A stretch of DNA of 64,000 bases from a virus. The DNA lies in the IMG/VR virus record IMGVR_UViG_3300027746_000016, positions 30,966 to 94,965 of that record. The stretch is one strand, 5' to 3'. Each line of letters starts with the position of its first letter. The stretch's first letter is position 1. Positions 25,767-63,633 of this stretch are shown piece after piece. Below the pieces are notes generated by a model. It saw nothing but the letters and a program-made list of their open reading frames with translations, had not been told where the DNA came from and made no database searches. A program made the translations under genes and the position numbers.

Positions 25767-26951
25767 TTACGCGTTTATAAAATCTAATTTTAAAGTTTTA
25801 CGAATAGTATCAACTTTAAGAATTTTAACTTCTCCATCGTTAGGTATTCGGAATTTACCCTTAAGGTGATTTACATCATTTTTGAAAATTTCATTAGTTT
25901 CAGGAATCGTGATTTCAATGAAAAAATTATCTTTATTTAGGACAAAATTTAAGGTACGTCCTTCTATTTCAGTTTTTATTTTTTGCCAAGTAATTTTTTC
26001 TTGATCAACTTTAGCTAAATCATTTGTTAAAATAATTCTAGGTTCACCTTTTTTAACAATAATGTCCTTAATATAGAAATCTAATACATCACCTGATTTA
26101 AAAGTACTTGTGTCTTCAATATAATTAGCAAATTCAGATTTATGAAGTAATCCTGTATAATAATTTTGAAATTCAATAAATATTCCAAATTCATATGGTT
26201 TATTTGTTAAAATTCCAGTATATTTTTTACCAAATTCTAAATCATATACTTTTTGAGGAAGTGTATGTTTGATATATTTCTTGTATGAAATAATATATAA
26301 ATCATTAACGGAATCATAATTTTCTATCATTACTGGAATTTCAGTATTTAAGTAGTCATTAAAATCACGAATTACATTGGCAGCAGCATGAGATCCTGGT
26401 AAGAAACATTTAACGGTTCCTTTGTATAGCGCTAAATATCCACCTTTTACCAAGCTAATAACTTTAACATAAAACCATTTATCAGTTTTTAAGAAGTCGT
26501 TTAGCGTATCTCTATATGAAATTGCAGCACACTGTTTTTCAGATGCATAAAATTCTCCACTGTCAACTTTTGTAATAATGGCTTTAAATTCTCTAGGATA
26601 GTCTCCATTAACTAATAACGAAGGCTCTTCTGAAAAGTCTCTAAATGGAATAAATATTGAAGACTTTGAGTGTTTTTCATAAGTAACAATTAGCTTATTA
26701 TCAAAATCAATACTCTTTGCAATCACTGTACATAATTGGCCTTCACTAAAGTCTTTTATACTGATCATTGAATGAGAGCTATGACTTGAATACATTTCGT
26801 ATAGGTCTTGAGCATAGTTTTCTTTACAATAAATTTTCATACCAGCCGCTGAGTCTGACTCAGTTAATTTTATTGAGGTATTAAATTTTGAATTTGTTTG
26901 ACCGTATACTAGATCAAAATCTGGAGAATTTGGAATATGGGTAGTTTGCAT
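25767..26951 (-). CDS. S1-domain RNA-binding protein, ribosomal protein S1-like
   Basis: This 394-residue protein appears to hold about three S1-type OB-fold repeats. One lies at about 48-125 (EGQLCTVIAKSIDFDNKLIV). A second lies at about 150-215 (VKVISLVKGGYLALYKGTVK, then CFLPGSHAA). The clearest is at about 240-310 (GKKYTGILTNKPYEFGIFIE, then YTGLLHKSEF). Ribosomal S1 and its relatives bind mRNA and help start translation without a Shine-Dalgarno sequence. Given the A-rich leaders in this phage, the protein might steer ribosomes to phage messages; this is inference. It has an early-type promoter motif. Confidence 0.78.
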   Translation of the reverse strand: MQTTHIPNSPDFDLVYGQTNSKFNTSIKLTESDSAAGMKIYCKENYAQDLYEMYSSHSSHSMISIKDFSEGQLCTVIAKSIDFDNKLIVTYEKHSKSSIFIPFRDFSEEPSLLVNGDYPREFKAIITKVDSGEFYASEKQCAAISYRDTLNDFLKTDKWFYVKVISLVKGGYLALYKGTVKCFLPGSHAAANVIRDFNDYLNTEIPVMIENYDSVNDLYIISYKKYIKHTLPQKVYDLEFGKKYTGILTNKPYEFGIFIEFQNYYTGLLHKSEFANYIEDTSTFKSGDVLDFYIKDIIVKKGEPRIILTNDLAKVDQEKITWQKIKTEIEGRTLNFVLNKDNFFIEITIPETNEIFKNDVNHLKGKFRIPNDGEVKILKVDTIRKTLKLDFINA

Positions 26952-30000: not shown

Positions 30001-31980
30001 GCAGTCGGTTAGTCTATTAGTAATTAATAAATTTGATTGTAGATAGGCTTGATACACAGTAGACAGTGTAGGATCTGGATTATATGTAAATGTATTTTGT
30101 AAATTCTGTAAGTTATTATTTACAGAATAGGTAACTGGCTTTGAAAATTTTATATACGAGTTAACTATTTTATTAAATAAAGTAGCAACTTCTCTGCGTG
30201 CAACAAGTTTAATATCATTAACTATATCATTAATTACTGAAGGATATATTTCAGTACGCTCTGTATTAATTTTATCTGTAATATTTTTACCTAAGTCTTC
30301 ATAAAATTTAGAATAGGTTTCTATATTTGAAATATAATATGTTCTTTTATTTGATTCACTGTCATCATCAAGAGTATTATCAATTTTTTCAGTAATAATA
30401 GCAGCATCAGGTGTATCTTTTAAACTTGGATCAATCAGAAAACGACTAAGACTAAGGCCTCTTTCCGCAAGGGTAAAGAAGTTATTAATTGGATTTGATA
30501 ATTTATTATAGAGTCCACTATATGGATATGGGAAATATCCATTATATAATAAACCAGGTATCTTAGAATAGTCAGCTCGACTTCTTCTACGTGGAAGATT
30601 ATTGTAGTCGAAAAATGAGTCAAGATCTTCAGGCTCAGTTATCTCGGAGTCCTCTTCATCTTTACCAAATTTAGTAATTGTATAAACATCATCAAATATA
30701 TTAGTAGTTAAATACGGGCTGTTTTTAATAGGAATAATAGTGTCTGGAGTTATATCTATTACTGGATTGGTTAACTTACCTTCTGAGTCTTTCACATTTA
30801 TATAGCCAACTGATCCATCTTCTAACTCAACTGGCAGTTTAATTCTTACAAAGTTACCATCAATAATTCTAGGAACTAATTTTAAATTAAGTATTGTAAT
30901 ATCACTAGGATTACTTGGAATAATTTGAGTTTTTAAGCCCACTGAAATTTGGCCAGATAGTTTTGAAAATAATTCAGAAATGTCATATGCAAGAGTCGAT
31001 ACGTTAGCAGCTTCGGTATTAAGCAAATCAATCCCGTTTAAAATTTGAGACTGGGCTACCAGTGCTTCATTTTGAAAATTTAGTTTTTCTTTATGTGCAT
31101 GTGCTAAGTTTTTAAGTAGTGTAATCCATGTATTTAGCTCAGGCAATTCATCTCTAATATAGTTTACGTATTCAAAAGATTGAGTAAATATACGAGCTGC
31201 GTTAGTTATATTTAAATTTAATACAGTAGAATCAGCATTGGCATTTATATTATCTATGGTATCAAATAAGTTAAGAGTTGGTGAGTTTGCGTTTACTGGA
31301 TCTAATTTACTAATTGCTAAATTAATATTAGCTTCAGTATTATTTTTAATAATTCGATAGGTATTAATAGCAGTAGCGTAAACAATAGTTGAGGGATATA
31401 AATTAGAAAACTGGGCAATTTTAGTAATAATAGCGGAAATAAAACCGTCTTGGTATCCTTTTGCCGCGTCGGTTGCTTGCTCCGCAACAGAATACAGTAA
31501 ATAGGTATCTTTGCTACTTGGAATTTTTCCGGCAATTGTGAGAGTAATTTGGTCAATTTCGGTTGACAGCCTATCAACTTCGTCTTCCCAATACCTATAT
31601 TGAGAGGCAAGAGGTTCCGTTATATCAACTATTGAATTAAAAAAATCAACCCTTTCTTGACTGTATATTTTAATAATATCAAGGTTATCAATAAGCTCTT
31701 CAACTTTAATCTTAACGATTGAGGCTTTTATACTGGTTGGAACTTTTGCAGTTTCAATTGCAATTATCTCTTTGATTTTTTCAGTAGCTTCTGGAATACA
31801 GCCAGTTTTAGAAAGTGTATCTTCAATTGTAACGGTTGGGTTAGTAATTAAAATATCAGGATCAGCAACCGTTTTGATACAGGCTTTTGCCTTGGCTAAA
31901 TCAGCCTCAGTAAATATAATATTTGGGATAGCCTCACATTTAACCTGATTAATTATGTCCTTAAATGTTAATTCTGACAT
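27016..31980 (-). CDS. Very large hypothetical protein, probable virion component
   Basis: This 1654-residue protein is not recognised. Residues 1-480 are helical and rich in Ile, Asn and Asp. About 490-560 has aromatic, proline-rich segments (LPRRRSRADY, YNGYFPYPYSG). About 790-900 is proline/hydrophobic (LPLPQFYKPLISIPTPLG). About 1010-1040 is charged. The last third has many hydrophobic helices (DLAIALALIYELFNALINSL; STLIPIIIEQLILMIPPIPL), as seen in tape measure or ejected proteins. A late-type ATAAATGACTATAG lies 42 bases upstream, unlike neighbouring early genes. A tail tape measure, ejection or baseplate role is possible but unproven. Confidence 0.8.
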   Translation of the reverse strand: MSELTFKDIINQVKCEAIPNIIFTEADLAKAKACIKTVADPDILITNPTVTIEDTLSKTGCIPEATEKIKEIIAIETAKVPTSIKASIVKIKVEELIDNLDIIKIYSQERVDFFNSIVDITEPLASQYRYWEDEVDRLSTEIDQITLTIAGKIPSSKDTYLLYSVAEQATDAAKGYQDGFISAIITKIAQFSNLYPSTIVYATAINTYRIIKNNTEANINLAISKLDPVNANSPTLNLFDTIDNINANADSTVLNLNITNAARIFTQSFEYVNYIRDELPELNTWITLLKNLAHAHKEKLNFQNEALVAQSQILNGIDLLNTEAANVSTLAYDISELFSKLSGQISVGLKTQIIPSNPSDITILNLKLVPRIIDGNFVRIKLPVELEDGSVGYINVKDSEGKLTNPVIDITPDTIIPIKNSPYLTTNIFDDVYTITKFGKDEEDSEITEPEDLDSFFDYNNLPRRRSRADYSKIPGLLYNGYFPYPYSGLYNKLSNPINNFFTLAERGLSLSRFLIDPSLKDTPDAAIITEKIDNTLDDDSESNKRTYYISNIETYSKFYEDLGKNITDKINTERTEIYPSVINDIVNDIKLVARREVATLFNKIVNSYIKFSKPVTYSVNNNLQNLQNTFTYNPDPTLSTVYQAYLQSNLLITNRLTDCTTELENLQLIIKENSLDPTILTAKILEIPCFKEAAASIEKPADDCEVAARLKLGKDPFIIRTVDGNDSGLPDFTSQCYWKEFTRSLNKVSILPFPDTTGPPPANSGFRYYPINTFVPIPGVGILTLPLPQFYKPLISIPTPLGTIVIILGLPITCKKVVVDAITAVINGNPVTLDINNDEIRIIPFPIPLPSLYVLYFGPDGRKYLAVSTNPTWLYSDPATNKPLVLGYELDNGPDSKNPLGINIKNPYKGQPIKGALMSPLSVVAAAEKAARLAKIAEDIAAGKIPFLDKLSEAEMMLAMLLGAGGGEFTNDIVKIQSNINKQLNKIGDIPINAISALKDKVRKNRAEQEDDASNETDLAKKRKDRKAARDANPLTIPEQIDATIEDFTSFYDKKMKFGILQFPKDASKHNPGLPEVLKCVEDIIELIALGSAIPLVSTLQEQIITLIAIILETKKVKELLKKYPSFNLNTEQGIKDFKDLLKDFFKSILDYIKGENVGHDTDEDVSEAEKAEILRAKAARQETIKKILSATAVALLSIPAINIFDLNKKCCEVKPVELFPGVSPDLAIALALIYELFNALINSLTAESIMELLGLSQIPNDLASTLIPIIIEQLILMIPPIPLPNIAGFIQYITQSVIPMVTSLSVLKSVNPLHPPLVPIVIPLDPLIKALIGLGLAALIEAILKLLLHANESGSLTLTANTFTVGGGSNSTQTITATTSVDKKLITKVLTTACGKDLTVSLEIVGEAGSNSTIAVDTNGNPILKTVVITVISKTGKKFSLPKLPLFPIDISQYLYLLTAADLIEVVRELITLVFEDILIPIATIVDAIAAIAKALKTFSYNIVEAAILQINLIKLAIMKIDSEIPPGLKLMIANPLLTNIIKLGALLALEEIEPTLSPVAWIASLSLCALAPPITFTSVATARLFHPILNSDDLPPWERLTHKNPLFTIFLDELAWKFSMNSTGSLIFSSKSPGIFPGIPPINLASYPHIL

Positions 31981-32092: not shown

Positions 32093-34427
<2,335 letters not shown>

Positions 34428-35352: not shown

Positions 35353-35796
35353 ATGGCTGAAGAACCTATTAAACCCAAGAGTAAAGCAAAACAGAGTAAA
35401 TACTATATTAATAATAGAGACTTTACCAATGAAATTATTAGGTGCAAACACGGCAGACTAAATGCAGAAACAGGTTATCAGCACACAGCTGGAGAACTTT
35501 CACCAATTGCAATTAACTACTTTATACTACTTGCAAACCGGGCTATTTTAAAATTAACATTTTCAAATCCATTAGATCGCGAGGACTGTATTCAGTCAGC
35601 TCTGCTTGACCTTTTAAGATATTGGAGAAATTTTAATGAAGAAAAATCAAATAATGCATTTGCCTATTTTACACAAATTGCAAAAAATGGATATGCTAAA
35701 GAATATAAAAAGATTCATAAACATATAGGTAAAGGCGAAAAGGTTGAATTTGTATCTTTAAGTTTTAGCGGAGACTCTGAAATTTATACAATTTAA
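35353..35796 (+). CDS. gp55: Late transcription sigma factor, gp55-like
   Basis: This 147-residue protein resembles T4 gp55, the minimal sigma factor that directs RNA polymerase to TATAAATA late promoters. YYINNRDFTNEIIRCK near the N-terminus matches the gp55 entry (YNYVNNKELLQAII). Residues about 70-120 (NPLDREDCIQSALLDLLRYW, then NFNEEKSNNAFAYFTQIAKN) match the sigma-2-like helices of gp55. T4 gp55 is 185 residues and ends in a sliding-clamp-binding tail. This protein stops earlier (SFSGDSEIYTI), so clamp contact may be weak, absent or made by another protein. The many ATAAATAAC motifs in the window are its likely targets. Confidence 0.75.
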   Translation: MAEEPIKPKSKAKQSKYYINNRDFTNEIIRCKHGRLNAETGYQHTAGELSPIAINYFILLANRAILKLTFSNPLDREDCIQSALLDLLRYWRNFNEEKSNNAFAYFTQIAKNGYAKEYKKIHKHIGKGEKVEFVSLSFSGDSEIYTI

Positions 35797-39715: not shown

Positions 39716-40882
39716 ATGGCATTTACCGAAACAACCCTAAACACATCTTCATTATTGGAGACAACTTTTATCTCAGATATGAGATTAATAGTTAATGCAA
39801 ATAATATAATTGTTAAATCCAAAGTAGAAGATATTATTAATACTCTTCAAATTGATTTAGTAAATAAATATATTGGTGTTGATATTCCAATTCAACAATT
39901 ATATACCAATGATGCAGTTATTTCAAATCAATTATTATTTAAAAGCGGTACTTCTGGTACTTCTGGTACAATTGCAAGTTTAACTCAGACGGCTGGAACC
40001 TCAGCATTCTTAGCGGATAATATAAACTTTACCAAAACCTTAACCTCATTAGCGGCTGGTTCTAAAGTATTAACACCATCAGTTGTTATTGGAACGACTG
40101 TAGGAAACGCAGCAGTTAGCTTTCCAACATCTGGCGGATCTGGTATTGTAGATAGAGGTTTACACGTAGGCGATGCAACTACACCGATTAGTGCAAATTT
40201 TTATGGAGAAGTTAATATTAAAAAACAGGCAGCGGTTCAAAGTTATAATACTGACTTTGATACAGTAGGTACCGTTAGACTGCTCGAGTTAACATCAGCC
40301 ATTACAACTCCAACTTCTAGTAGTGCACTATACGCAAATTTAACACTTTCAAAAACAGATCCTCAGTTTATATATATTAATTTAAAAACTCCGGCTGCAT
40401 TTACCCTAGCTGCAACCAATCCAATTTATTTACTATTACATGAAGATTTTACATCAACTACAAGTAGACCAGTTGCAGGTCAAACCTTTACTATTATTTT
40501 AAATAACTTACTTAATAATAGTAATGTTGAAATAAGCACATCAACTTGGCCTCAAGCCCAAGTTGCATCAGGTACCGCTGCAGCTATTAATATTATATCA
40601 GGTTTTACACAAACTGCCAGCGCAGGAGCTTCAGCCTTAAAATCTGGTTATATAAATGGTGCACTATGGCCATCTCTTCCAACCACAGTGACCGGTGCAA
40701 TTACTGCACTAACTGCTACATCACCATATCTACAATACGTTCGGCTTTATAATAGGAATGTTCAAGCCGCGGCTATACCTAAACCTAGAGCAACAAGTGT
40801 AAGTTTTACAAAAACTGAACACTCAACTAATTTTTCATATTACACAGTTACAAATAGTAATAATATTGCTATTATAAACTAA
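39716..40882 (+). CDS. Virion structural protein, fibre-like
   Basis: This 388-residue Thr/Ser/Ala-rich protein is not recognised. The N-terminus (about 1-75) is helical and may anchor it. A short SGTSGTSGT run (about 77-85) is like the Gly-x-y repeats in the fibre genes at 52920 and 63690. The rest is beta-rich with many TT and SS pairs, as in phage fibres. It has its own late promoter and starts a run of closely spaced genes. Likely a tail or fibre component, by location and composition. Confidence 0.72.
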   Translation: MAFTETTLNTSSLLETTFISDMRLIVNANNIIVKSKVEDIINTLQIDLVNKYIGVDIPIQQLYTNDAVISNQLLFKSGTSGTSGTIASLTQTAGTSAFLADNINFTKTLTSLAAGSKVLTPSVVIGTTVGNAAVSFPTSGGSGIVDRGLHVGDATTPISANFYGEVNIKKQAAVQSYNTDFDTVGTVRLLELTSAITTPTSSSALYANLTLSKTDPQFIYINLKTPAAFTLAATNPIYLLLHEDFTSTTSRPVAGQTFTIILNNLLNNSNVEISTSTWPQAQVASGTAAAINIISGFTQTASAGASALKSGYINGALWPSLPTTVTGAITALTATSPYLQYVRLYNRNVQAAAIPKPRATSVSFTKTEHSTNFSYYTVTNSNNIAIIN

Positions 40883-52700: not shown

Positions 52701-52920
52701 TTCTCCAATTATAAATGATACCTTTGTTAATACTAAGTTTATTAATTTTTCTCAGGTGTCATATGATAATTTAGTAAGTAACGGATATGCACTAGACTCA
52801 AATTTTATTCAAATAAATAACACAGGTTCCGCAATATTAACTGGCTCAATACCAACTGGCTTAATACCAAATGGCTCAGGATTTAGCGTAGTTCCAAAAT
52901 TAAAAATTAACTATATTTAA
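46777..52920 (+). CDS. Giant tail module protein (2047 residues)
   Basis: This is the largest gene in the window. It starts with TTG at 46777; no ATG exists for hundreds of codons downstream in frame. The N-terminus (NVSFGLIRTNPKLTSNVKLT) and repeated aromatic/Asn-rich beta segments run throughout. A threonine-rich linker (SGTTTTTTLAGGVTTTTTTV) lies near residue 1485, similar to linkers in the 986-residue adhesin. A YGPSNLP peptide occurs near residue 1255. The last codon overlaps the next ATG (TAATG). No enzyme motif is seen. It is probably a baseplate-associated or fibre-scaffold protein. Confidence 0.75.
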   Translation: MSTNISYTKLADRNVSFGLIRTNPKLTSNVKLTVDSAGDLWLNSIDATNELANRKYKKFRVNPNSNHPVNIYKFYDYGNTPSNISFALGSTINTDSVASNLKDQYDFDLYSSGAKYLTSRLYDEKFSYFAPLYLDKVLPEYFVIFKIPGASNYTVGEWKSKLADPNFSKSDFALDLFKNAKAVETILIDETTNIGKYIRRIQLDKQYNKNPLYINFKNDANSTYRGLSITSGTYTEIPLLLNLNRSIPQLRLEKNIISGFENNNLIYPRILNLEFLFNDLISPEYEINRYFGIYCNSIDLEEFDIDIPAMYNATEDNLNSLMTIYKQSDTISYNLTNQNGVVLRGTNVESDLSYLNSALSNKDLLYFPYLKTKDRELHLLNIKAPNYSIPTFSQTGQTVIFSVDDTSFDIGKTFGAGDLFSQEPAVKYSLDTRAAVSITINSIPAHLDVLRIYHPAGSIFNNSESHSKYDDIVFVNNYFTSVDTKYSLEYPTISIVNFNTSDPNSGSPTFSPNTSELIGTQYKSSINGSKWIWNGNSYIPGVLGSRIYVNINNAEINSVGFTDLTQLAQTIATIVNNFTNTTLLGSSITNSVFIQVSEPGHSYPDLAIKYISPTSRIYINGKNTADIVYADGGFAKMNQPVISFANIENIKAELPNIIVKTATDWSKINRICNSTSILNSKLTESTLSNYLNTATLILEDNEEVQITYNSIELRKIVKPKLGILSMFEIKDFNFEYHSTQYSKIPEIDLYQYYYIPKDIAILDFTKYVYRAIGSGIILVNETQYTISVGSTQYISQSLLGLHKYSVLSGNVILIQTNLIPQNQAAQRLDIAILDQDQNFQNFTGFFGFGADHSAPDPNSTTYQYKEKFKTNNLISEYAAYLENYSTEFANDSKIIPYISKWGIIDSTDARGNPYRLNSDILFGKDNFGPSHREKSPNAEKLTHEWFYIESDFNYSSNIDLLKENYYYFNSPLDINLLISEASYFEKYFTYVPTLDNIELDFPQFRYSKLMNNSFSRQYNTLFNGIQFKFSELDKEGLVLPGTTRFEDYNFSILLKPVPEDLINPQSPIKYRVIENINAKSILILIEVALGDISKISNELLSIPTDSDFARDNRVDQSNILTGNGLITEDQISSFQIDTIVDVTSPDPVKKLYTNNYYLDLIEAFTGATVTDAITGESIVNDRVNGVYVPKAGETALVKYTDTHSIILAFSESKLFNEIESGNITNGSVNNKNLDQKFDTSKILPAYISTAISPGIYGPSNLPLPEPKSVIYLVKVVDYRSIGFPPTLTGLSKLNLNIVKPALLSIFGDYRISFNSNGVSNLTYAFLYAATDKKYNTTASAFSTVKLAVGVDLSPGSMKLTENGYFIPGANLKNLPKNYFKLEEFINPSSASHSTLTTPTNGDIAPLPAFSPLMFINSIGEISILLKTSAEFNNNLTNTSLDISRSGATTHALKTVNNNLLIIDSPTVIYDILSEVIPSITSGTTTTTTLAGGVTTTTTTVISQLNLAINYVGQSVITKSFTLPSKFKIGDIVKIYAIAQPTVHYLIGAVTSVTETVSNSGNFYKLTVSVRSQTTANTSHVPDWGITCTQNIIVLKPAVVTNASTGVNQITLNKSNFPSGSSPEWLLNTQQFQLFGGKNYFLNLFKNLSFANFSELLLNNSDLISFESYMDGKLLPGKQIQISIEQADQVNKTTIISTGPEFVQTASQQLMGGVIHKESVSIPYEIFRYSGEYDIVYKPVSGFKFNSKLGSTDLSAANVFFNTEIKNFFTIPEFYLVKYAESKILDFEDSDTYLPVYPLINESPIDKTSYNTLSSSWDFNYHRLYTTKTDYTLIPGSRRITEDYSFVSKLINLPMSLTAESFNAVQVTTTNFEITDAQFKQLTVNGQAVDIIYATFQNEIRLKINLELIISKALITNGLRFQFNKFFRKDGNSILTTDPLVFGTLTQEQYLLNYCKDNLSKLYTLDLAEFYIKGINSPIINDTFVNTKFINFSQVSYDNLVSNGYALDSNFIQINNTGSAILTGSIPTGLIPNGSGFSVVPKLKINYI

Positions 52921-55319
52921 TGGCAATAAACATCAACCTAAAAGAAGTATTTTCAAACGATAGTGCTGGAGACATTTCATCTAAATTAAATTTTAATTTT
53001 AATCAGCTGCTTGCACTAGGTGTAGGCCAAGGCGGTCTACCTGGAGAAACTGGATCAAGCGGTTCAGCTGGACCAATTGGACCAACTGGCCTGCCTGGAA
53101 CAAATGGTCCAGTGATTTGGTCATCTACTAGTGGATCAACCTCAGCGCTAGGAGCAAGCTCGCCTGCAAATTCAGTAGTTGGCGACTATTACATTAGCGA
53201 TACTGCGATTTATAAAAAAAATGAAGCTGGTACAAATTGGGAAGTTATTACAAATTTTAGTAATATATTTAATGCAGTTTCGGTAGCCGGCACAGTCTCA
53301 TGGCAAACTGGCATAAACAGTTCTGCTATTTCTAGACTTATTGTAAATACTAGAAATTCAAATGGCATTGACCGAATTACTACTCTTGGAACCAGCGGAA
53401 ACTATACTACAAATTTTCCAAATTGGAAAGCCTCAGACGCTACTTCTCAAAATTCACAAGCTACACTTTTTAATTTTGATGCAAATACCGTAAAATATTA
53501 TATTGCAGGTAGTGCTGATACTAATGGATATACGGTTACGCCGACTACCCTTAGGGCAGGTAATGCATTAACCGATGAGGTTTTTCCGTATACTTCACTA
53601 CTTTCTCTATATTCATTTTTTAATAGCGCAGATGCACCAACCGAATCAAGTCAATATTCTGGAAATATTGGATATAGACATCAACTTGAATTAGGGTCAG
53701 TTGACGAATTGACTGAGGGTTTACATGGAACTGCTGGTACAAGTTCAACCTATGTAGTAAGTCCAACCTATCAAAATTTAAGAATTAGAAAATATAGAAT
53801 GGCAGATACTAGTGGAAGTTTTGGTGGAAATAGTGTTATTCTAACTGATTTTAATCTACATGCAGCGGATGGAATAACTACACCAGCCCTAACCTCAAAA
53901 ATGAAATGGAGAGTTAATAAAAAAACCTCTGCAACTAATAGTACAGGTTCAGTAATTACCATGACGTTAAATCCTGGAATAACTGAGGCTAGTGCAAGCG
54001 ATAGCATTAAAACAAGTTCAATTTCTGGAGTTGATGGTATTCATTTAGTATCTAGCGAAGGCCCATTTAAATTAGCAATAGGGTTTGACTCAACTAATAT
54101 TGCTAATAGTACAAAAAAGGCTATAATTAGTTCAGACGGTACAGACACCTTAACTTCAATTACATTTGCTAAATTACCAATTACTGTAACCAATTCATCT
54201 GCTAATATTACATTGGCGACTACTGGAATTACCTCAAATTCAGCTATTACAATTTCATCAACTGCTACCCCAGGTGCAGGCACTGATAGTATAGTACTAA
54301 GCACAAATAGTGGCGGCGATATAGGTTTATATTCTGGGACAAGCGGTAACTCTATTAGAATTGGAGGAACTAAGGCCAATCCAGCAATTACTATTTTAAA
54401 TACCAGATTAGCAAGTGCCATTCCATTTGCAACCTCTACTGGTACAGTTCCTACCTATTCAAGCAGTGATGCAAATACTCTCGACGAATATCAGGAAGGT
54501 ACATTTGTGCCAACAATTAGCTATTTATACAATGGCAGCCCTAAGGCTCTAAGAACAAGCGGCTCTGGTGTATTAAGTGCAAATTCTCCAACTATTAGTC
54601 AAAACTATGGAATTTATACAAAAATTGGAAAATTAATTCAATTTACACTTAAATTTTCAATATCAAATTGGTACATCAATAATACTTCATCTTTAGCCCC
54701 GAGCGATGACAATCCAGCCGGTGGTGCACAGGCTCCGCTTAATGCATTTACCTCATATGATAATATTGATGCATTAGATGTTGGAAATATTGCGAATGAT
54801 ACACCATCTGGTACTTGGCATCACTATTACGGTCGAGAACAATATCAACTTGCAATATCTGGAATACCAAATCATTTTCCTGATCTTAACGGAACTGGCC
54901 AAAGCGGCTATGGAACAGCAGATATGCAATTTAAGGTTTCATTAAATCCAAGAAATACTTCAAATACAGCCGCGTGTATTAGAACCTTCCCAATGGACTA
55001 TTCTTTTGGAGGAACGGGCGGAGTTGGAACAAGTGGCAAGTCAACTCATCCATTTGAAGCGATTGATCCATCTTCTATTTATGCAAAAATTGTTAGAACT
55101 GATCAGGGAACTCAAAATGTTTATCCTGAACTTAGACTATATGGTAATCGTAAAAGTTATTCTGCAAATCCTACCCTTTTAAATAACGTAAGTGGAATAC
55201 GCTCAAACGTATCAATTTATGATTTTTTAACCATTAATAATCAATCAGAAGCCAACGGTAATACAATTGATGTTGTTATAAGCGGTAGTTATTTAACTGG
55301 GCATACGCAAGCCGTTTAA
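52920..55319 (+). CDS. Tail fibre protein with collagen-like N-terminal segment
   Basis: This 799-residue protein has a short Gly-x-y, collagen-like run at about 36-62 (GLPGETGSSGSAGPIGPTGL). Beta-rich, Ser/Thr-rich repeats follow, typical of trimeric fibres. The C-terminal region (about 560-799) is more globular and aromatic and could be the host-contact domain. It overlaps the previous gene by one base and the convergent gene at 55316 by four bases. T4 short or long fibre homology is not recognisable. Confidence 0.78.
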   Translation: MAININLKEVFSNDSAGDISSKLNFNFNQLLALGVGQGGLPGETGSSGSAGPIGPTGLPGTNGPVIWSSTSGSTSALGASSPANSVVGDYYISDTAIYKKNEAGTNWEVITNFSNIFNAVSVAGTVSWQTGINSSAISRLIVNTRNSNGIDRITTLGTSGNYTTNFPNWKASDATSQNSQATLFNFDANTVKYYIAGSADTNGYTVTPTTLRAGNALTDEVFPYTSLLSLYSFFNSADAPTESSQYSGNIGYRHQLELGSVDELTEGLHGTAGTSSTYVVSPTYQNLRIRKYRMADTSGSFGGNSVILTDFNLHAADGITTPALTSKMKWRVNKKTSATNSTGSVITMTLNPGITEASASDSIKTSSISGVDGIHLVSSEGPFKLAIGFDSTNIANSTKKAIISSDGTDTLTSITFAKLPITVTNSSANITLATTGITSNSAITISSTATPGAGTDSIVLSTNSGGDIGLYSGTSGNSIRIGGTKANPAITILNTRLASAIPFATSTGTVPTYSSSDANTLDEYQEGTFVPTISYLYNGSPKALRTSGSGVLSANSPTISQNYGIYTKIGKLIQFTLKFSISNWYINNTSSLAPSDDNPAGGAQAPLNAFTSYDNIDALDVGNIANDTPSGTWHHYYGREQYQLAISGIPNHFPDLNGTGQSGYGTADMQFKVSLNPRNTSNTAACIRTFPMDYSFGGTGGVGTSGKSTHPFEAIDPSSIYAKIVRTDQGTQNVYPELRLYGNRKSYSANPTLLNNVSGIRSNVSIYDFLTINNQSEANGNTIDVVISGSYLTGHTQAV

Positions 55320-56188: not shown

Positions 56189-58258
56189 ATGCAAATTGTA
56201 GCTTATAAAATAATACCAGACGTATCTAAAAATTCAATTAGTTTCAGTAAAAATTACAGGATTTTTTCAACCGGAGAACCATTAGAGCAGGCAATTCAAA
56301 TAACTGGGTTTGTTGATGATATTGACTTGGGTTCAGCCAATTCAACCTACCTTATTAGAAAATTAAGATATTCAACAGATAAGGCCAACTGGTCGCTATG
56401 GTATTCATTTACTGAAGACAATTTAACTAATTTAACAGATTTAGCATTCTCAGAATCTAATATTTTCTTTGAGGTTAAATATGAATATGACGACTCTACG
56501 TATAGTGCAATCACAACCCCATTAGCTGTAAATGAAATAAAAATTAGAGTTAAGAGTTCTAAAATACAGGCTGATTTATTTACACCAACCACATATTGTT
56601 CATCAGAACAGTGTCCGGCCCTAATTGCCGAACGTGAAGCAAGCTTTAAACCATATGAAATTAATACAGCAATCGGAATTGCTCATGAATTAAGCTTTCA
56701 AACCAATAAATTATTTGGGCATGAGGTTATCTATTTTAAAACTGAGCCAGATAGAGAAGGAACTGATTTTATATTTAAAGAATATACCTTATTTAAAACA
56801 ACAGACCGCCAGTGTATTAAAATACTGGTACCTGACAATAAATTCCCAGATAATAAGCCGAACTTTACTGATTTTGGAGTTGATTTTGCAATGGATGTAC
56901 CATTTGAAATTCATATTGATAATACCTATTTTCAAATGATTTTTGGAAAAAAGTCTCAGCCTAGAAAACGCGACTACATATTTATTCCATTGGTAAATAG
57001 AATGTACGAAATACAGGGTTCATATCTATATAGAGGATTTGGACTAGAGCCAATCTATTGGAAAATCCAACTGGTTAAATTTAATCCAAATATTGATATG
57101 TTTATGAAAGCCGCAGATCGAACGTTTTTAGATAATATTATTGTATCGACTGAGCAATTATTTGGAGCAGAGGCTGAAGTTCAGAAAAAAGATGCACTTA
57201 ACAAACAGCAATTTTCTACTATTTCTACCAAGTTTGATGAATCCAGACAAAGATTACACCCAGACATAAAAAATAAAATTTTAGATATTACTTTTAACTA
57301 TTCTCCACTAATTGAATATTATTATGACCTGAGCGGAGTATTGCCTGCACTCGTTAATTATACATTAACCGAATCTGCATCGTCCTCTGCTCAAATATTG
57401 ACAACAACCTCTCCATATGAAGTTTATGCATATGAATCCAGTAATATTTTTAGTAATTGGCTATCAAACAATTTGGTTACTGGTGATGCTGCTGTAATTA
57501 ATGCAACCCAAAATGCGGTAATTAAAATGAATGGCCCAAAAGATTCATTTACTGCTTCTGGTAAATATGTAGTGGTTGAGGGTTATAAAAACCTTGGCCT
57601 AAAATCAACTGAGCGTAGAAATTTAGTAGCCACGGCTAATGTAATTCAACTTAAGCAGGCTGAGCATGCAATTGTCTATAAAAAGCCAGCCTCAACTACT
57701 GATACTCCAAATATGACATTTAGCGCAATTGTTAACTTTAATAGGGTTGCCCAGAATGTGATATTTTTTAGAGGATATGATGATTATACACAAAAAGGAT
57801 TAGTCATCTCAGGCACAATTGTAGATAACTCAGGTGTACCTAATCTAACCATTTATGTCAAAATAAATGAAACTCAATATTCATTTCCAGTAGGTAATAT
57901 TGAATATTTAAAATGGTATCCACTAATTGTTCCAATTTCATCTGAATTTAATCAACTTGAGGTTAATATGTACTCCCTAAGACAGGACCCTGCGAATATT
58001 AAAAACTTTAATAAAATTCTTCCAGTGTATTCACATTATGTAAAAACTCAAGCCTTTGCTTTTAATACAACTTCATCTTGGTCAATTCCTAGTGCTAATT
58101 ATTCAATTGCAAATATTAGACTATTTAATACAATGATCCAGACTGAAGATCATGAATTTATTGTAAGTCAACTGTTTATTAGGGATGAATCTGTTCTTTC
58201 AATAATTGATAATGCCCGACCTAGATTAAATATTCCATTTATTGGAATTAATAGATAA
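56189..58258 (+). CDS. Virion structural protein, tail module
   Basis: This 689-residue beta-rich protein is not recognised. The N-terminal domain (about 1-130) has a beta-sandwich look (LRYSTDKANWSLWYSFTEDN). The middle (about 200-330) has aromatic/charged segments (KKSQPRKRDYIFIPLVNRMY) reminiscent of baseplate hub or wedge folds. The C-terminal part resembles a concanavalin-like sandwich (TFSAIVNFNRVAQNVIFFRG). It has its own late promoter divergent to the gene at 55316. Probably a structural tail component. Confidence 0.72.
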   Translation: MQIVAYKIIPDVSKNSISFSKNYRIFSTGEPLEQAIQITGFVDDIDLGSANSTYLIRKLRYSTDKANWSLWYSFTEDNLTNLTDLAFSESNIFFEVKYEYDDSTYSAITTPLAVNEIKIRVKSSKIQADLFTPTTYCSSEQCPALIAEREASFKPYEINTAIGIAHELSFQTNKLFGHEVIYFKTEPDREGTDFIFKEYTLFKTTDRQCIKILVPDNKFPDNKPNFTDFGVDFAMDVPFEIHIDNTYFQMIFGKKSQPRKRDYIFIPLVNRMYEIQGSYLYRGFGLEPIYWKIQLVKFNPNIDMFMKAADRTFLDNIIVSTEQLFGAEAEVQKKDALNKQQFSTISTKFDESRQRLHPDIKNKILDITFNYSPLIEYYYDLSGVLPALVNYTLTESASSSAQILTTTSPYEVYAYESSNIFSNWLSNNLVTGDAAVINATQNAVIKMNGPKDSFTASGKYVVVEGYKNLGLKSTERRNLVATANVIQLKQAEHAIVYKKPASTTDTPNMTFSAIVNFNRVAQNVIFFRGYDDYTQKGLVISGTIVDNSGVPNLTIYVKINETQYSFPVGNIEYLKWYPLIVPISSEFNQLEVNMYSLRQDPANIKNFNKILPVYSHYVKTQAFAFNTTSSWSIPSANYSIANIRLFNTMIQTEDHEFIVSQLFIRDESVLSIIDNARPRLNIPFIGINR

Positions 58259-58267
58259 ATACTATAA
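58255..58267 (+). promoter_or_regulatory. Late promoter motif before amidoligase-like gene
   Basis: ATAAATACTATAA overlaps the stop of the previous gene and starts only 16 bases before the ATG at 58271. The short distance makes it weaker evidence than the other late motifs. Confidence 0.4.
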
Positions 58268-58270
58268 GAT

Positions 58271-59623
58271 ATGTATACTGATATAAACAAGCGAAACCTA
58301 TTTGAAAATGTAAATCTTGGATTTGAATTCGAGTTTTTTTCACCAACTAGTAGAAAAGAACTTTCTGAAAAATTAACTAAATATCTTGGTAAAAAGGTAG
58401 AATGGTCTGAATCATATCATTCACGTCAACCGGTATCTCAAAACGTATTTAAAATTGAACCTGATTTTTCAGGCGGATTTAAAATGAATGAGCTTATTAC
58501 TGGAGTAATGCCGTATAATGAAGCAATTCATGTAATGTTTAAGGTTTTTAATTTTATTGCAGAACATGGATTTACCAGTGAAAGAACAGGAATTCATATT
58601 AATATTTCATTAAATGAGGATGCTTTAGAGCTAAAAAGTAAATTACAGACCCTAAATGTATTTAAATATATTTTAAATTTAGATGAGGCTAAAATATTTG
58701 AAATGTGGCCATCTGCGAAATCTAGGACCCAAAGAATTTATAAAAACTCAGTATTAAATATTTATCCAAAAACTAAATTTATTGCTGAAAAAAGTTTGCT
58801 ATATTCTGGTCCAGCAAATCCCAGTAATTTTAACCTACCACATTCTAAATATTTTGGTCTAAATTTTACAAAGTTATCAAATAATTATCTTGAAGTTAGA
58901 TATGCAGGCGGTGAAGGTTATCAAAATAAACGAAAAGAGTCAGTTGACCTAATTAACTATATAGCAGAGAGTCTCTATTCAGTTTTACAAACCAATAATG
59001 AATACTCAGTAAATGAAACCCGAAAAATAAATGATATATTAAAGGTTCATACTGATTTAATAAATTCAGTTAAAACATTTGAAGGATTTAAGAGATCATA
59101 TCCTGAACTTGAACTATATATTGACTTAAGAGATGATCCTCGAATTGTTGAAGCTAACTATGCCAATGTTAAAGAAAAAATATTTGAGTTAATTACAACT
59201 GGTAATCTCCGAAAAGGCTTAATTAATTATGATACTTCGGCCCAACGCCTTCAATTAAAGGACTCAAAACTAAAAGAGGGATTTTCAATTAATAATATTG
59301 ATTTTATAAATTGTTCAATTGAAGGAGAAATCACAAATTGTAACCTATTTGGTAGTAAAGTAAGATCATCACATATTAGAGAGTGTAAGATTATAACCGG
59401 TAATGATATACGATATTGTTATATTAAAAATTGTCAATTTGAAAGAGATGGAGTTAACCGAATTGACCTTACCTATATTAAAAGTAAACCTGAATATCCT
59501 ATTTATGCTGATTTAAATGAGTGTATTATTAGATCAGGCACGCTTGGTTTAAACTGTAAAGTTGATTCAAAAACAGAATTTATAAAAGCATATACACCAT
59601 CCAATAATTCAGATAAGTTATAA
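58271..59623 (+). CDS. Amidoligase-like enzyme fused to beta-helix-like repeats
   Basis: This 450-residue protein has the pattern of the Amidoligase_2 (glutamine-synthetase-like COOH-NH2 ligase) family, which joins amines to carboxylates using ATP. Visible matches are GFEFEF with two Glu (E19, E21), EPDFSGGFKMNELITG (D65, E74), ERTGIHINIS (H109), SKYFGLNFTKL and LEVRYAGG (E208, R210). Residues about 335-420 contain pentapeptide-like strands (FINCSIEGEITNCNLFGSKV; IRYCYIKNCQFERDG), a likely beta-helix tail. It sits among virion genes under late control. It may modify a virion or cell-envelope molecule, or be carried on the tail. Substrate unknown. Confidence 0.7.
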   Translation: MYTDINKRNLFENVNLGFEFEFFSPTSRKELSEKLTKYLGKKVEWSESYHSRQPVSQNVFKIEPDFSGGFKMNELITGVMPYNEAIHVMFKVFNFIAEHGFTSERTGIHINISLNEDALELKSKLQTLNVFKYILNLDEAKIFEMWPSAKSRTQRIYKNSVLNIYPKTKFIAEKSLLYSGPANPSNFNLPHSKYFGLNFTKLSNNYLEVRYAGGEGYQNKRKESVDLINYIAESLYSVLQTNNEYSVNETRKINDILKVHTDLINSVKTFEGFKRSYPELELYIDLRDDPRIVEANYANVKEKIFELITTGNLRKGLINYDTSAQRLQLKDSKLKEGFSINNIDFINCSIEGEITNCNLFGSKVRSSHIRECKIITGNDIRYCYIKNCQFERDGVNRIDLTYIKSKPEYPIYADLNECIIRSGTLGLNCKVDSKTEFIKAYTPSNNSDKL

Positions 59624-59669: not shown

Positions 59670-62630
59670 GTGGCAGTTCAAGTTAAACTTACCTCAGTTA
59701 AAAAATTAAGTTCAGTTAGTACAGCGTCAATGGTTGAACTATCTAACTTTAATTTTACAGCAATTGCATCTGCCGTTAGAGAATTTTTAGTATCTATTAA
59801 TTATCAACAAGGAGTTGATGCAGTATCAGTTGATATTAATACAATTTCAGCCGATACTTTAAATATTAGAAATGGACTTTCGGTATATGGTGCTCAATTA
59901 GAAAGCGGTAATTATCCAAAAGTTATTGAATTAGACCCAAGCGGCTCAATTATTTCTAAAAATATTATATTAGAGGATGTAGTTGATGCAAAACGAGTTA
60001 GATTAAGAGTTTTTGGACTTTTACCAAGTGTAGGTATTCCTGGTGAACTCGTATATATCGGTACTCAACTTTCTAAATCTGAAGGAATTTATGTTTGGTT
60101 AAATTCAACCGGCTGGACCCTAGTTGCTGGAACAAATGGAGTTGCTAAGTGTATGCAGGAGGTTTCAATGACAGCCACTGCTAATGTTATTAGTGCAGAT
60201 AATTCGGTTGTTTCTCCTCAAGGTTTATTTCTATTTCCAGCCCCGCTTGCTGCAACTGGTTTTTTATTATTTGTTAATGGCCATCAAATTACAGTAGGAA
60301 ATTCGGACTTAACTGCCCCGGCCTATTTAAGTAAAGATTCAGGAGTCACAGCCTCTTCTTTTAATGAAGTTGATGTGACTGACCAACTATGTTGGAATCC
60401 ATCGGTTGCTGGATTTAATTTAGATACTTCTGATACAATTACACTAAGGTATTTTACAGAAGATCCATATTGTTCACAAACTGGCTATACTTGCATAACC
60501 GGAATTGCAAGTTCTTCTACTACTACCTGGAATCAATTTACTATTCAAATAATTGGAACCCCAACTGAGCCTGGCCCAATTACTATTTGTAAAATACCTA
60601 ATTTAACCGCCGGCTCTGCCACTTTACCTACCGGTTATTCATTAAGTAATACAATATTATCATATACAATATCCGATCCAACTGGAATCTATCCAACTGG
60701 AGCAATTGTTAAATTTAAAGTACCTCAATCACTAAGTGAAGCCGAGTTTAATTTAATTAAAATATTTCATGAGGTTGATTCAGTTCTAGTTGATGAAACC
60801 GTTAAGGTTGGAGATATTGCAGGAGATTTATATATTCCAAACTATGCAAGCCGATTAATTTATGCACAGGTAGATTCATTTAGTCCATTTTATTTAATTC
60901 AAGGCCAGAGTATCACAACTACGACTAGTTCAACAAGTACAACAACTACGCTTAACTTAACTACAACTACTACATGTGCGCCTAATTTAATAAATTATTT
61001 AATACCTAGTGTATTAGCACCAACTCAAATTACTTTTTATGGAACTCCAGCTGGGCCATTTAATGTCGTATTTACCGATTCATTAGGAGGAGTACACGAC
61101 TTAACCGGAATAATTGGATCAATGATTAGCTTAGGTTGGAATTTTAACTTATCTAATCCAAACTATTCAGGTATTCCATCTACTGTTGGAACATATGTAT
61201 TTACAAATTCATCAAACTGTTCGTATACAATTTCCGTACCGGTACCTGAGCTTAATACAACCACGACAACTACTCAAGCCTATGCTGGTGGAATTACATC
61301 TACCTCTACCACATCTACAACAACAGCGTCATGCGCAAACTCATTAACTGCAACCCCTAATCCATTTAATAATCCAACCACTATAACTTTTATAGGCTCG
61401 CCAATCGGCCCATATTCAGTTATGTTTACTGAATTAGACAGTGGAATTCAATACTATTTAGGTGCAGGAATTAAAACACCATGGGTATTTGATAGAAAAA
61501 ATTACTATTTGGGAGCAATTAATAGTTCATATGGAACTTATAAATTTATTTCACCTACTTGTACTATTAATATACCAGTAATTCGAGTAACAACCTCAAC
61601 CAGTACTACCAGTACATCAACGAGTACTACCAGTACCTCAACTAGTACTACCAGTACATCAACGAGTACTACCAGTACCTCAACTAGTACTACCAGTACA
61701 ACTACTGCAGCCCCAACTACTACCAGTACATCAACCAGTACTACAAGTACAACAACAGCTGCACCGACTACTACAAGCACATCAACTAGTACTACCAGTA
61801 CAACTACTGCAGCCCCAACTACTACGAGTACATCAACCAGTACTACCAGTACAACAACTGCTGCTCCAACCAGTACAACAAGTACCTCAACTAGTACTAC
61901 TAGTACGACCACGGTTGCTCCATCATTCCAAACACTAACCGGCTATTCTAATAGTAATTCAACTAAATTCTGTGCAGCTAATGCAAATGCAGCATTTACT
62001 GTCTATACTGCAACTGACTCAACCCTAGCCTCTGCGTATGCTAATGGTGCTCAGATTTTCTCAGACACTGCATTAAGTAGCCTAGCTGCTGCTGCCATTT
62101 ATGGTAATTCAGATGGAGGTGGCGGAACCATTTGGTATACTTGGGACGGTAATACATTTACCACTACTGGTACTTGTGCAGGCGGTTCAACTACTACAAG
62201 TACAACAACTGCTGCTCCAACCAGTACAAGTACAACAACTGCTGCACCGACTACTACCAGTACCTCAACGAGTACTACGAGTACAACCACAGCTGCGCCA
62301 ACGAGTACAACAAGTACCACAACTGCTGGCCCAACCAGCACTACGAGTACAACAACAGCGGCTCCGCCTGCATACCAAACACTAACCGGATATTCCAACG
62401 CTAATTATCCTAAGTTCTGTTCAGCCAATGCAAATGCCGCATTTACGGTCTATACTGCAACTGATTCAACACTAGCCTCTGCGTATGCTAATGGTGCTTC
62501 TATTTACTCAGATACTGCATTAACAACCCTAGCGACGGCTGGCGTTTATGGTAATTTAGATGGAGGAAGCGGGGTAAATTGGTATACTTGGGATGGTACT
62601 ATGTTTACCACTACCGGTTCTTGTGCATAG
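59670..62630 (+). CDS. Large fibre/adhesin with Thr/Ser-rich mucin-like linkers and duplicated domain
   Basis: This 986-residue protein starts with GTG. The N-terminal 260 residues are fibre-like. Beta-sandwich-like units follow, alternating with threonine-rich linkers. The main linkers (about 641-750 and 840-900) are built from TSTSTTSTTTAAPT units. A domain of about 85 residues beginning QTLTGYSN and ending with TWDG and TTGTCA (or TTGSCA) occurs twice (about 753-838 and 902-986), with paired Cys. The layout suggests a receptor-binding fibre with flexible, possibly glycosylated stalks. The repeats invite length change by recombination. The next gene is a glycosyltransferase. Confidence 0.8.
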   Translation: MAVQVKLTSVKKLSSVSTASMVELSNFNFTAIASAVREFLVSINYQQGVDAVSVDINTISADTLNIRNGLSVYGAQLESGNYPKVIELDPSGSIISKNIILEDVVDAKRVRLRVFGLLPSVGIPGELVYIGTQLSKSEGIYVWLNSTGWTLVAGTNGVAKCMQEVSMTATANVISADNSVVSPQGLFLFPAPLAATGFLLFVNGHQITVGNSDLTAPAYLSKDSGVTASSFNEVDVTDQLCWNPSVAGFNLDTSDTITLRYFTEDPYCSQTGYTCITGIASSSTTTWNQFTIQIIGTPTEPGPITICKIPNLTAGSATLPTGYSLSNTILSYTISDPTGIYPTGAIVKFKVPQSLSEAEFNLIKIFHEVDSVLVDETVKVGDIAGDLYIPNYASRLIYAQVDSFSPFYLIQGQSITTTTSSTSTTTTLNLTTTTTCAPNLINYLIPSVLAPTQITFYGTPAGPFNVVFTDSLGGVHDLTGIIGSMISLGWNFNLSNPNYSGIPSTVGTYVFTNSSNCSYTISVPVPELNTTTTTTQAYAGGITSTSTTSTTTASCANSLTATPNPFNNPTTITFIGSPIGPYSVMFTELDSGIQYYLGAGIKTPWVFDRKNYYLGAINSSYGTYKFISPTCTINIPVIRVTTSTSTTSTSTSTTSTSTSTTSTSTSTTSTSTSTTSTTTAAPTTTSTSTSTTSTTTAAPTTTSTSTSTTSTTTAAPTTTSTSTSTTSTTTAAPTSTTSTSTSTTSTTTVAPSFQTLTGYSNSNSTKFCAANANAAFTVYTATDSTLASAYANGAQIFSDTALSSLAAAAIYGNSDGGGGTIWYTWDGNTFTTTGTCAGGSTTTSTTTAAPTSTSTTTAAPTTTSTSTSTTSTTTAAPTSTTSTTTAGPTSTTSTTTAAPPAYQTLTGYSNANYPKFCSANANAAFTVYTATDSTLASAYANGASIYSDTALTTLATAGVYGNLDGGSGVNWYTWDGTMFTTTGSCA
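61590..61918 (+). repeat. Long Thr/Ser-coding tandem repeat array
   Basis: Units near 24 bases (ACCAGTACATCAACGAGTAC and variants), mixed with ACAACTGCAGCCCCAACTAC units, encode TSTSTTS and TTAAPTT peptides. Silent changes between units show the peptide, not only the DNA, is kept. Confidence 0.9.
61927..62180 (+). repeat. Duplicated C-terminal domain, copy 1
   Basis: Codes for the QTLTGYSN...TTGTCA domain. Copy 2 is at 62373-62628. The two copies share long identical peptides such as NANAAFTVYTATDSTLASAY, a sign of recent duplication or gene conversion. Confidence 0.85.
62189..62366 (+). repeat. Second Thr/Ser-coding repeat array
   Basis: A shorter array of the same TTAAPTS/TSTSTTS codon units between the two copies of the duplicated domain. 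Confidence 0.85.
62373..62628 (+). repeat. Duplicated C-terminal domain, copy 2
   Basis: Second copy of the domain at 61927-62180, ending at the protein C-terminus (TTGSCA). Confidence 0.85.
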
Positions 62631-62676: not shown

Positions 62677-63633
62677 ATGTTAACAAAGAAAATCATATTT
62701 TTATCAGCTCAACCAGATGTGCCGTATTTTCATTGGCAAGTTGAGGTAATGATTCATAATTTTATTAAACACGGAATTAATCCAAATTGGATTGAAATTC
62801 TATGGGCCTATGATAATGAACCTTCCGTAGAACTATTATCATTAAGCGCAAAGTATCCATATGTTAGATTTTTTAGCTATAAAAAAACCCCTATTGATAA
62901 TTTTGGATATATTCCAATTCTAAGACCTGATATTATTGAACAGCATTTTATTAAGTATCCAGAACTTAGAGGTGAAACTATTTTATATCATGATTCAGAT
63001 ATTATTTTTAGAGAATTACCAAATTTTGATGAAATGCACGGGGATCTTTATTGGTATTTAAGTGATACAATTTCGTATATTGGTGCTGAATATATTAGAT
63101 CAAAATCAAATGATCTATTTGTTGATATGTGTAATATTGTTGGAATTTTACCAGAGGTGGTTGATCAAAATCAAAAAAATTCAGGTGGAGCCCAATATTT
63201 AATGAAAGGTGTAACCGCTAATTATTGGAAAGGTGTAAAAGATGATTCACTAGCTCTTTACAAATATATGGTAGATCGAGAAAATTTAGAAAGAACTACC
63301 TTAACTCCAGAAGAATTACAGGTGTATAATCCAGTTCAAAAATGGTGTGCTGATATGTGGGCAGTTCTTTGGGGAGCTTGGAAATTAGGTGCACAAACTG
63401 TAATTGAGCCAGGCCTTTCATTTAGTTGGGGTAGTTCTAATTTAGCTGAATATTTAAATAATAATATAATGCACAATGCTGGAATTACCTCAAATCAAGA
63501 AGGCAAGGTTTTTTATAAAGGCGAATTTATTAATAGAAATCCATTTGAATTTGATTTTTCCAATATAGATCAGGATACTGCATCTGCTAAATACGTAGAT
63601 GCAATTATTTATGCAAAAGAAATGAGGTCCTAA
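62677..63633 (+). CDS. GT-A-fold glycosyltransferase
   Basis: This 318-residue protein looks like a nucleotide-sugar-dependent transferase. The N-terminus is a Rossmann-like strand with LTKKIIFLSAQPDVPYFHWQ. The metal-binding DxD motif is HDSDIIF (about residues 109-115). NSGGAQYLMKG (about 168-178) fits the acceptor side, and a C-terminal NIMHNAGI has a late His. It carries an exact early-type promoter motif, unlike all its neighbours. Two roles are plausible: adding sugar to hydroxymethylcytosine in phage DNA (a gp42-like enzyme is present), or to the Thr/Ser-rich adhesin just upstream. Neither is shown by sequence. Confidence 0.75.
   Translation: MLTKKIIFLSAQPDVPYFHWQVEVMIHNFIKHGINPNWIEILWAYDNEPSVELLSLSAKYPYVRFFSYKKTPIDNFGYIPILRPDIIEQHFIKYPELRGETILYHDSDIIFRELPNFDEMHGDLYWYLSDTISYIGAEYIRSKSNDLFVDMCNIVGILPEVVDQNQKNSGGAQYLMKGVTANYWKGVKDDSLALYKYMVDRENLERTTLTPEELQVYNPVQKWCADMWAVLWGAWKLGAQTVIEPGLSFSWGSSNLAEYLNNNIMHNAGITSNQEGKVFYKGEFINRNPFEFDFSNIDQDTASAKYVDAIIYAKEMRS

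Follow-up and report, generated by a model that had tools for sequence, protein, structure and literature searches.

What would a putative ATP-dependent ligase do among the genes for the neck and tail of a phage? The question is raised by a gene at positions 58271–59623 (+) of the window, the stretch of 64,000 nucleotides analysed here, which represents positions 30966–94965 of a 94,965-base virus record and ends where the record ends. The gene is an open reading frame of 450 amino acids with an ATG start, supported by an Amidoligase_2 match above the cut-off and by relatives of constant length. An initial annotation had read it as an amidoligase-like protein joined to pentapeptide-like repeats, citing the motifs GFEFEF, HINIS and LEVRYAGG, and all three are present in the open reading frame, at residues 17–22, 109–113 and 207–214 respectively.

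Residues 13–132 of the window protein matched the Pfam model Amidoligase_2 (PF12224) at E 1.5e-5, the score of 25.5 bits exceeding the cut-off of 22. NCBIfam gave no match to this protein, PHROGs no convincing family (best E 0.29), and a PDB sequence search with the single protein no match. PF12224 recognised only 26 of 82 relatives at E ≤0.01, and the Pfam model had no match in any of five huge-phage records.

Relatives were sought in phage, metagenomic virus and cellular collections. A tblastn search of 50,697 phage records yielded six matches, LR756500–LR756504 and LR745206, at 26–36% identity; all six are uncultured phages of 462–735 kb, and the same six records were found with two other family members as queries. 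Searching the phage collection at the DNA level with window positions 40000–63900 gave no match. Two scans of IMG/VR confirmed at least 592 of 598 and at least 513 of 598 candidate stretches as relatives, a count of stretches rather than of distinct phages, and the best 80 of each scan were taken further. Only three loci, all in metagenome bins, were found among 84,980 species genomes. Set against the phage and IMG/VR matches, this makes the amidoligase-solenoid family almost wholly viral. One relative, 64% identical to the window protein, is on a contig of 254 kb that had been assigned to the bin of a Bacteroidetes genome (CAIWBA010000291.1); the contig is perhaps from a phage, and would then hint at the host phylum.

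The resulting set comprised 181 records (180 loci and the window), which do not equal 181 phages as some contigs are in twice; in seven the best open reading frame was incomplete. The 131 unique complete reading frames of the family were 433–483 amino acids long in the relatives, with the sole exception of a 311-amino acid frame at locus L061, where the gene is split. There, the amidoligase gene occupies two reading frames between positions 4409 and 5792, through a frame break or an assembly error. Removal of this frame and clustering at 85% identity left 87 representatives. For structure prediction 82 of the 87 rows were aligned, the five GenBank huge-phage rows being left out.

Invariant in all 87 representatives were G17, E19, E21, D65, S67, E74, T77, S113, E139, K193, Y194, G196, N198, E208, R210, Y211, G213 and N319. 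E19 and E21 belong to the GFEFEF motif (58319–58336), D65, S67 and E74 to the motif DFSGGFKMNE, which runs from D65 to E74 (58463–58492), S113 to HINIS (58595–58609), and E208 and R210 to an ExR motif (58892–58900). The pattern ExE, D..E, H, ExR presumably corresponds to the residues with which glutamine synthetase binds metal and substrate. Within HINIS, position 109 is H in 77 of 87 and Q in 10 of 87, and position 111 is N in 79 of 87 and S in 8 of 87. The ten relatives with Q (L071, L072, L073, L074, L083, L092, L096, L098, L149 and L179) include eight in which N111S accompanies H109Q, so that two predicted active-site residues change together. The catalytic domain had a mean pairwise identity of 45.5% over the 87 rows, compared with 32.8% for the C-terminal domain and 30.8% for the helical linker between them. 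Of the residues that the initial annotation had singled out, E19, E21, D65, E208 and R210 are thus invariant and H109 nearly so; a loss of the acidic residues in relatives, which would have spoken against its reading, was looked for and did not occur.

An AlphaFold2 model of the window protein, built with the 82 aligned sequences, had a pLDDT of 90.0 and a pTM of 0.86. Residues ~10–245 (58298–59005) form a predicted glutamine synthetase-like catalytic domain. Maize glutamine synthetase (2d3a_A) ranked first in VIA-align, with Z 12.6 and an rmsd of 3.2 over 178 residues; all 50 entries listed were glutamine synthetases or close kin with Z of at least 11.2, and their alignments spanned approximately residues 1–260 of the model. 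A structural search of a viral library ranked a family member first, and phage amidoligases made up many of the named matches. When the whole two-domain model was searched with Foldseek, the top rows reached TM-scores of only 0.19–0.30; as evidence for the predicted fold, the VIA-align domain alignment outweighs these whole-model rows. The amidoligase fold claimed at the outset is thus borne out by the prediction, and an unrelated fold did not emerge. Chance occurrence of the short motifs was also considered, and was ruled out by family-wide conservation together with the fold.

The likeness to glutamine synthetase is one of catalytic-domain fold, with 9–13% sequence identity over most of the listed alignments, and neither Pfam nor profile sequence searches gave a glutamine synthetase match to the window family. 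Glutamine synthetase proper has an N-terminal beta-grasp domain and forms a ring oligomer. The possibility that the gene is simply a glutamine synthetase serving nitrogen metabolism was considered and set aside. Glutamine synthetase has been reported in nine moraphage genomes in the accessible text of PMC12619734, and part of the window family may have appeared there earlier under that name.

The catalytic domain is followed by a helical linker (residues ~246–312; 59006–59206), assigned from the secondary structure of the model, and by a pentapeptide-type solenoid (residues ~313–440; 59207–59590). No Pfam pentapeptide model matched the window protein alone. At the family level Pentapeptide_4 matched 39 of 82 members, the family profile matched PDB pentapeptide proteins over residues ~320–390 (best E 7e-5), and the model showed regular short strands from residue 326 onward; the pentapeptide-like repeats that had been noticed in the sequence are therefore real as a property of the family. 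All 87 rows contain the C-terminal domain. The repeat type is that of AlbG/McbG-like proteins (2xt4), MfpA and Qnr, from which the window family differs in that its pentapeptide solenoid is the C-terminal domain of a ligase.

We then compared the family with amidoligases of known phages, the founding amidoligase paper being reportedly that of Iyer et al. 2009. PF12224 matched a protein in each of phiEco32, LUZ24, CW02, phi14:2 and Atu_ph07. In four of these five the gene of a partner glutamine amidotransferase, GATase_6, lies 0.8–3.0 kb from the PF12224 gene, the exception being Atu_ph07, which has none. GATase_6 was likewise absent from all six records searched, the window's own 94,965-base fragment and five whole huge-phage records of 462–735 kb, while 14 of 14 controls were positive. 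COOH-NH2_lig (PF14395), which with GATase_6 belongs to phage cassettes for peptidoglycan modification as a second ligase, matched none of the six records, nor the control genomes. Genes of the GGACT (gamma-glutamylcyclotransferase) family were present in three of the six, none of them near the amidoligase, and neither an ATP-grasp nor a cyclotransferase gene was a recurrent neighbour in the neighbourhoods examined. Each of six records carried a single full copy of the amidoligase. The proteins of phiEco32, LUZ24, CW02 and phi14:2 share the Pfam family and the predicted glutamine synthetase-like fold with the window family, but they lie in metabolic cassettes with GATase_6 and were not found by the window-family profile; the window family has its own solenoid and neck or baseplate neighbours, and no GATase_6. 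According to the accessible parts of the literature, phage amidoligases sit in metabolic, early or accessory gene sets (PMC5498523, PMC10580990, PMC11318856, PMC3890496, PMC3517423, PMC5513430), and cell-surface modification against superinfection has been raised as their role (PMC5498523, PMC10580990, PMC11318856).

Only the Atu_ph07 protein, AUZ94978.1, was found by the family profile (E 1.6e-21, positions 27–257). It keeps E19, E21, D65, E74, H109, N111, E139, R152, K193, N198, E208 and R210, and lacks the conserved G196, Y211, S113 and T77; its ExE and D..E motifs are separated by a long insert. As the profile match ends at 257, the C-terminal solenoid was not found in this protein. Its gene and the portal gene, two genes apart, are on opposite strands. 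Atu_ph07 is a cultured jumbo phage of Agrobacterium with 131 virion-associated proteins, most of them encoded in three clusters of which one is CDS 170–215 (PMC6102473, accessible part). Counting from portal gp198 and prohead core gp204 as anchors, AUZ94978.1 would probably be gp196, inside this cluster.

In the window, the amidoligase gene is separated from its neighbours by 12 bases upstream and 46 bases downstream. The upstream gene (56189–58258, +) encodes a protein of 689 amino acids with a gp14-like head closure (Hc2) core and extra beta domains; phrog_679 (head closure Hc2) matched 10 of 12 members of this neighbour family (best E 5.3e-8), and the model is poor in the gp14-like middle. 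The C-terminal half of this protein resembled lectin, carbohydrate-binding and other beta-sandwich folds in Foldseek with low TM-scores; lectin-like folds would be odd for a neck protein. Downstream lies a gene for a 986-amino acid protein (59670–62630, +), which is the direct downstream neighbour in 15 of 87 loci and has a conserved N-terminal part in an alignment of nine sequences. Between its conserved parts are long, mucin-like Thr/Ser-rich linkers of very variable length; one idea is that they are glycosylated. The second downstream gene (62677–63633, +; 318 amino acids) matched phrog_4417 (E 4.8e-63).

Other lineages showed a different arrangement. The L177 lineage has on one strand genes for a gp5-like hub, an S1-domain protein, the amidoligase, a gp13-like adaptor, a gp25-like wedge and a gp6-like wedge, with the gp13-like assignment found in 16 of 17 members and the S1 assignment in 14 of 14. 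The Hc2 and Ad2 families are, we take it, the T4 gp14 and gp13 types. A neck gene is therefore the direct neighbour in two lineages, gp14-like and upstream in the window clade, gp13-like and downstream in L177. With different direct neighbours in different lineages, none of these proteins is marked out as the substrate. The gp13 neck protein is common in moraphages, according to the accessible text of PMC12619734. In a megaphage lineage (LR745206, LR756502) the amidoligase lies near opposite-strand tail genes and a DHH phosphoesterase. In 26 of 87 loci (L021, L022, L134 and relatives) the first or second gene downstream of the amidoligase encodes a DHH-family phosphoesterase, an assignment that 14 of 18 members share.

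At least one of five neck, baseplate and tail families was present within 10 kb in 40 of the 44 loci with at least 8 kb of flank on both sides, taken as a raw count; the other 43 of the 87 loci, the window among them, have shorter flanks and were left out. On a rough estimate for a 500-kb genome, the background chance of such a neighbour from five single-copy families would be at most about one in five. Four loci lacked the five families within 10 kb: L030, L020 (the 735-kb phage), L130 and L064. L030 nonetheless has a gp14-like gene at 347 bases. Comparison of 21 neighbour clusters with hhalign united only clusters 10 and 16. Because the gp13-like link was found in both deep halves of a tree of 88 rows, the association of the amidoligase with neck and baseplate genes looks old. 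The flanking virion genes noted at first are thus genuine and conserved in relatives, though neck/baseplate describes them better than tail. Their company had been called unexpected for such a ligase; it is so by comparison with the cassettes of the four known phages, but it is not unique, as the Atu_ph07 relative lies near a portal gene.

The initial annotation had also proposed a late promoter. A possible element of this kind, GATAAATA, is present at 58254–58261 (+), where it overlaps the stop codon of the upstream gene, its end falling 9 bases short of the ATG; as a promoter it has weak support. Of seven copies in the window, counting both strands, four fall in the 60-base stretches that precede the 45 listed genes, where 0.15 would be expected under a uniform spread that ignores the AT-richness of upstream stretches. 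Co-transcription of the amidoligase with the neck gene would be a simpler reading, given the close gene spacing. A late sigma factor gene is encoded at 35353–35796 (+; phrog_234, E 4.7e-18). The shorter sequence ATAAATA recurs upstream of genes (for example 164, 1982, 15484, 35897, 39716 and 56189), with 11 of its 43 window copies in upstream stretches against 0.91 expected under uniform spread, and is possibly the late-promoter core of this phage.

The enzymes of the glutamine synthetase superfamily use ATP to phosphorylate a carboxylate, and an amine then displaces the phosphate. To judge from the retained catalytic residues, the window protein is very probably an active enzyme of the Amidoligase_2 kind. 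Our best explanation, which we put forward tentatively, is that it is a ligase of glutamine synthetase fold, made late and acting on a neck or tail protein; it is the position of the gene that points to a virion protein as substrate. A virion protein is one of the two targets to which the initial annotation had supposed that a peptide or amine may be attached, the other being a cell-wall component. The enzyme would be produced together with the neck and baseplate proteins of very large contractile-tailed phages, a late timing suggested by gene position, and would act during assembly, creating an amide or isopeptide bond on one of the neck or tail proteins, with the pentapeptide-type solenoid docking either the substrate or the enzyme. 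In favour of this explanation are the Amidoligase_2 score, the glutamine synthetase-like model, seven invariant charged residues (E19, E21, D65, E74, E139, E208 and R210), neck-gene neighbours in two lineages, the 40 of 44 loci, the lack of GATase_6 and the single copy per record. Against it are the four of 44 loci without the five families, the S1 RNA-binding and DHH phosphoesterase neighbours, which are not virion proteins, the tail genes on the other strand in the megaphage lineage, and the Q in place of H109 in 10 of 87. The more specific proposal, that in the neck and baseplate gene block of the largest phages there is a dedicated single-copy ligase, steered by the pentapeptide solenoid, whose amide bonds modify neck or tail proteins covalently or cross-link them, is possible but doubtful.

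If the virion genes around the ligase set only its timing, its target could instead be the host envelope, with peptidoglycan peptides or a receptor modified late in infection. This has been proposed for cassettes of the phiEco32 and RIO-1 type in the accessible parts of PMC5498523, PMC10580990 and PMC11318856, and would fit the GGACT-family genes in three of six records. We consider it unlikely, as the same records are devoid of GATase_6, ATP-grasp and cyclotransferase genes do not recur in the neighbourhoods examined, and the neck and baseplate link appears old. The virion module is equally where a virion-associated enzyme would be encoded, one that is in the particle or enters the cell and acts at infection rather than at assembly. 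Many of the 131 virion-associated proteins of Atu_ph07 are without known function, and by our numbering the CDS 170–215 cluster should include its relative (PMC6102473, accessible part). A soluble ATP-dependent enzyme would presumably need ATP inside the host, however, and we regard action at infection as quite unlikely.

RimK, an amidoligase of another fold, modifies ribosomal protein S6, and by analogy the substrate might be a protein involved in translation or RNA metabolism, from either phage or host. In 19 of 87 loci, which belong to lineages other than that of the window, the gene directly upstream encodes an S1-domain protein, a DHH phosphoesterase gene is found at most two genes from the amidoligase in 26 of 87, and the window itself has a ribosomal protein S1-like gene at 25767–26951 (−), whose product contains S1 domains and has 30S S1 models as its best NCBIfam matches, below their cut-offs. 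This gene, however, is on the strand opposite to the amidoligase at a distance of 31 kb, and only some lineages show the S1 link, which makes a RimK-like role improbable. The domain might also have been retained without catalysis, as a structural or chaperone part of neck and tail assembly; the virion gene context, the solenoid as a structural kind of domain, and the change of H109 to Q in one set of relatives, mostly with N111 to S, would all suit this. A scaffold would have no need of seven predicted active-site residues that are charged and invariant in 87 of 87, and we disfavour this possibility as highly improbable.

The window protein belongs to a distinct branch of the Amidoligase_2 kind, with a solenoid domain of its own and an apparently old link to neck and baseplate genes. 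The branch is conserved, is unannotated in the records examined, and is tied to particle-assembly genes in phages that are for the most part uncultured and reach 735 kb. If virion proteins are modified, the neck and tail assembly of very large phages would include an enzyme-made covalent step, and the cultured relative in Atu_ph07 makes a virion substrate testable. Within the glutamine synthetase superfamily PafA is a protein-modifying enzyme; by contrast with PafA/Dop, no small Pup-like gene lies between the window amidoligase and its neighbours.

In the open-licence literature, no paper was found that connects amidoligases either to pentapeptide repeats or to a function in the virion. In the accessible part of a jumbo-phage paper (PMC7824862) 'amidoligase' occurs only in the reference list, PMC7162821 has neither 'amidoligase' nor 'glutamine synthetase' in its text, the text of PMC9723777, on megaphages, has no 'ligase' and that of PMC11242549 no 'amidoligase', and the accessible parts of PMC5705681 and PMC8976061 contain nothing bearing on the placement of phage amidoligases.

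Two other genes of the window were recorded in passing. A GroEL chaperonin is encoded at 32093–33664 (−; phrog_5725, E 1.2e-160), and the product of 52920–55319 (+), a probable tail fibre with weak PHROG tail-fibre matches, has a collagen-like Gly-x-y stretch near its N-terminus.
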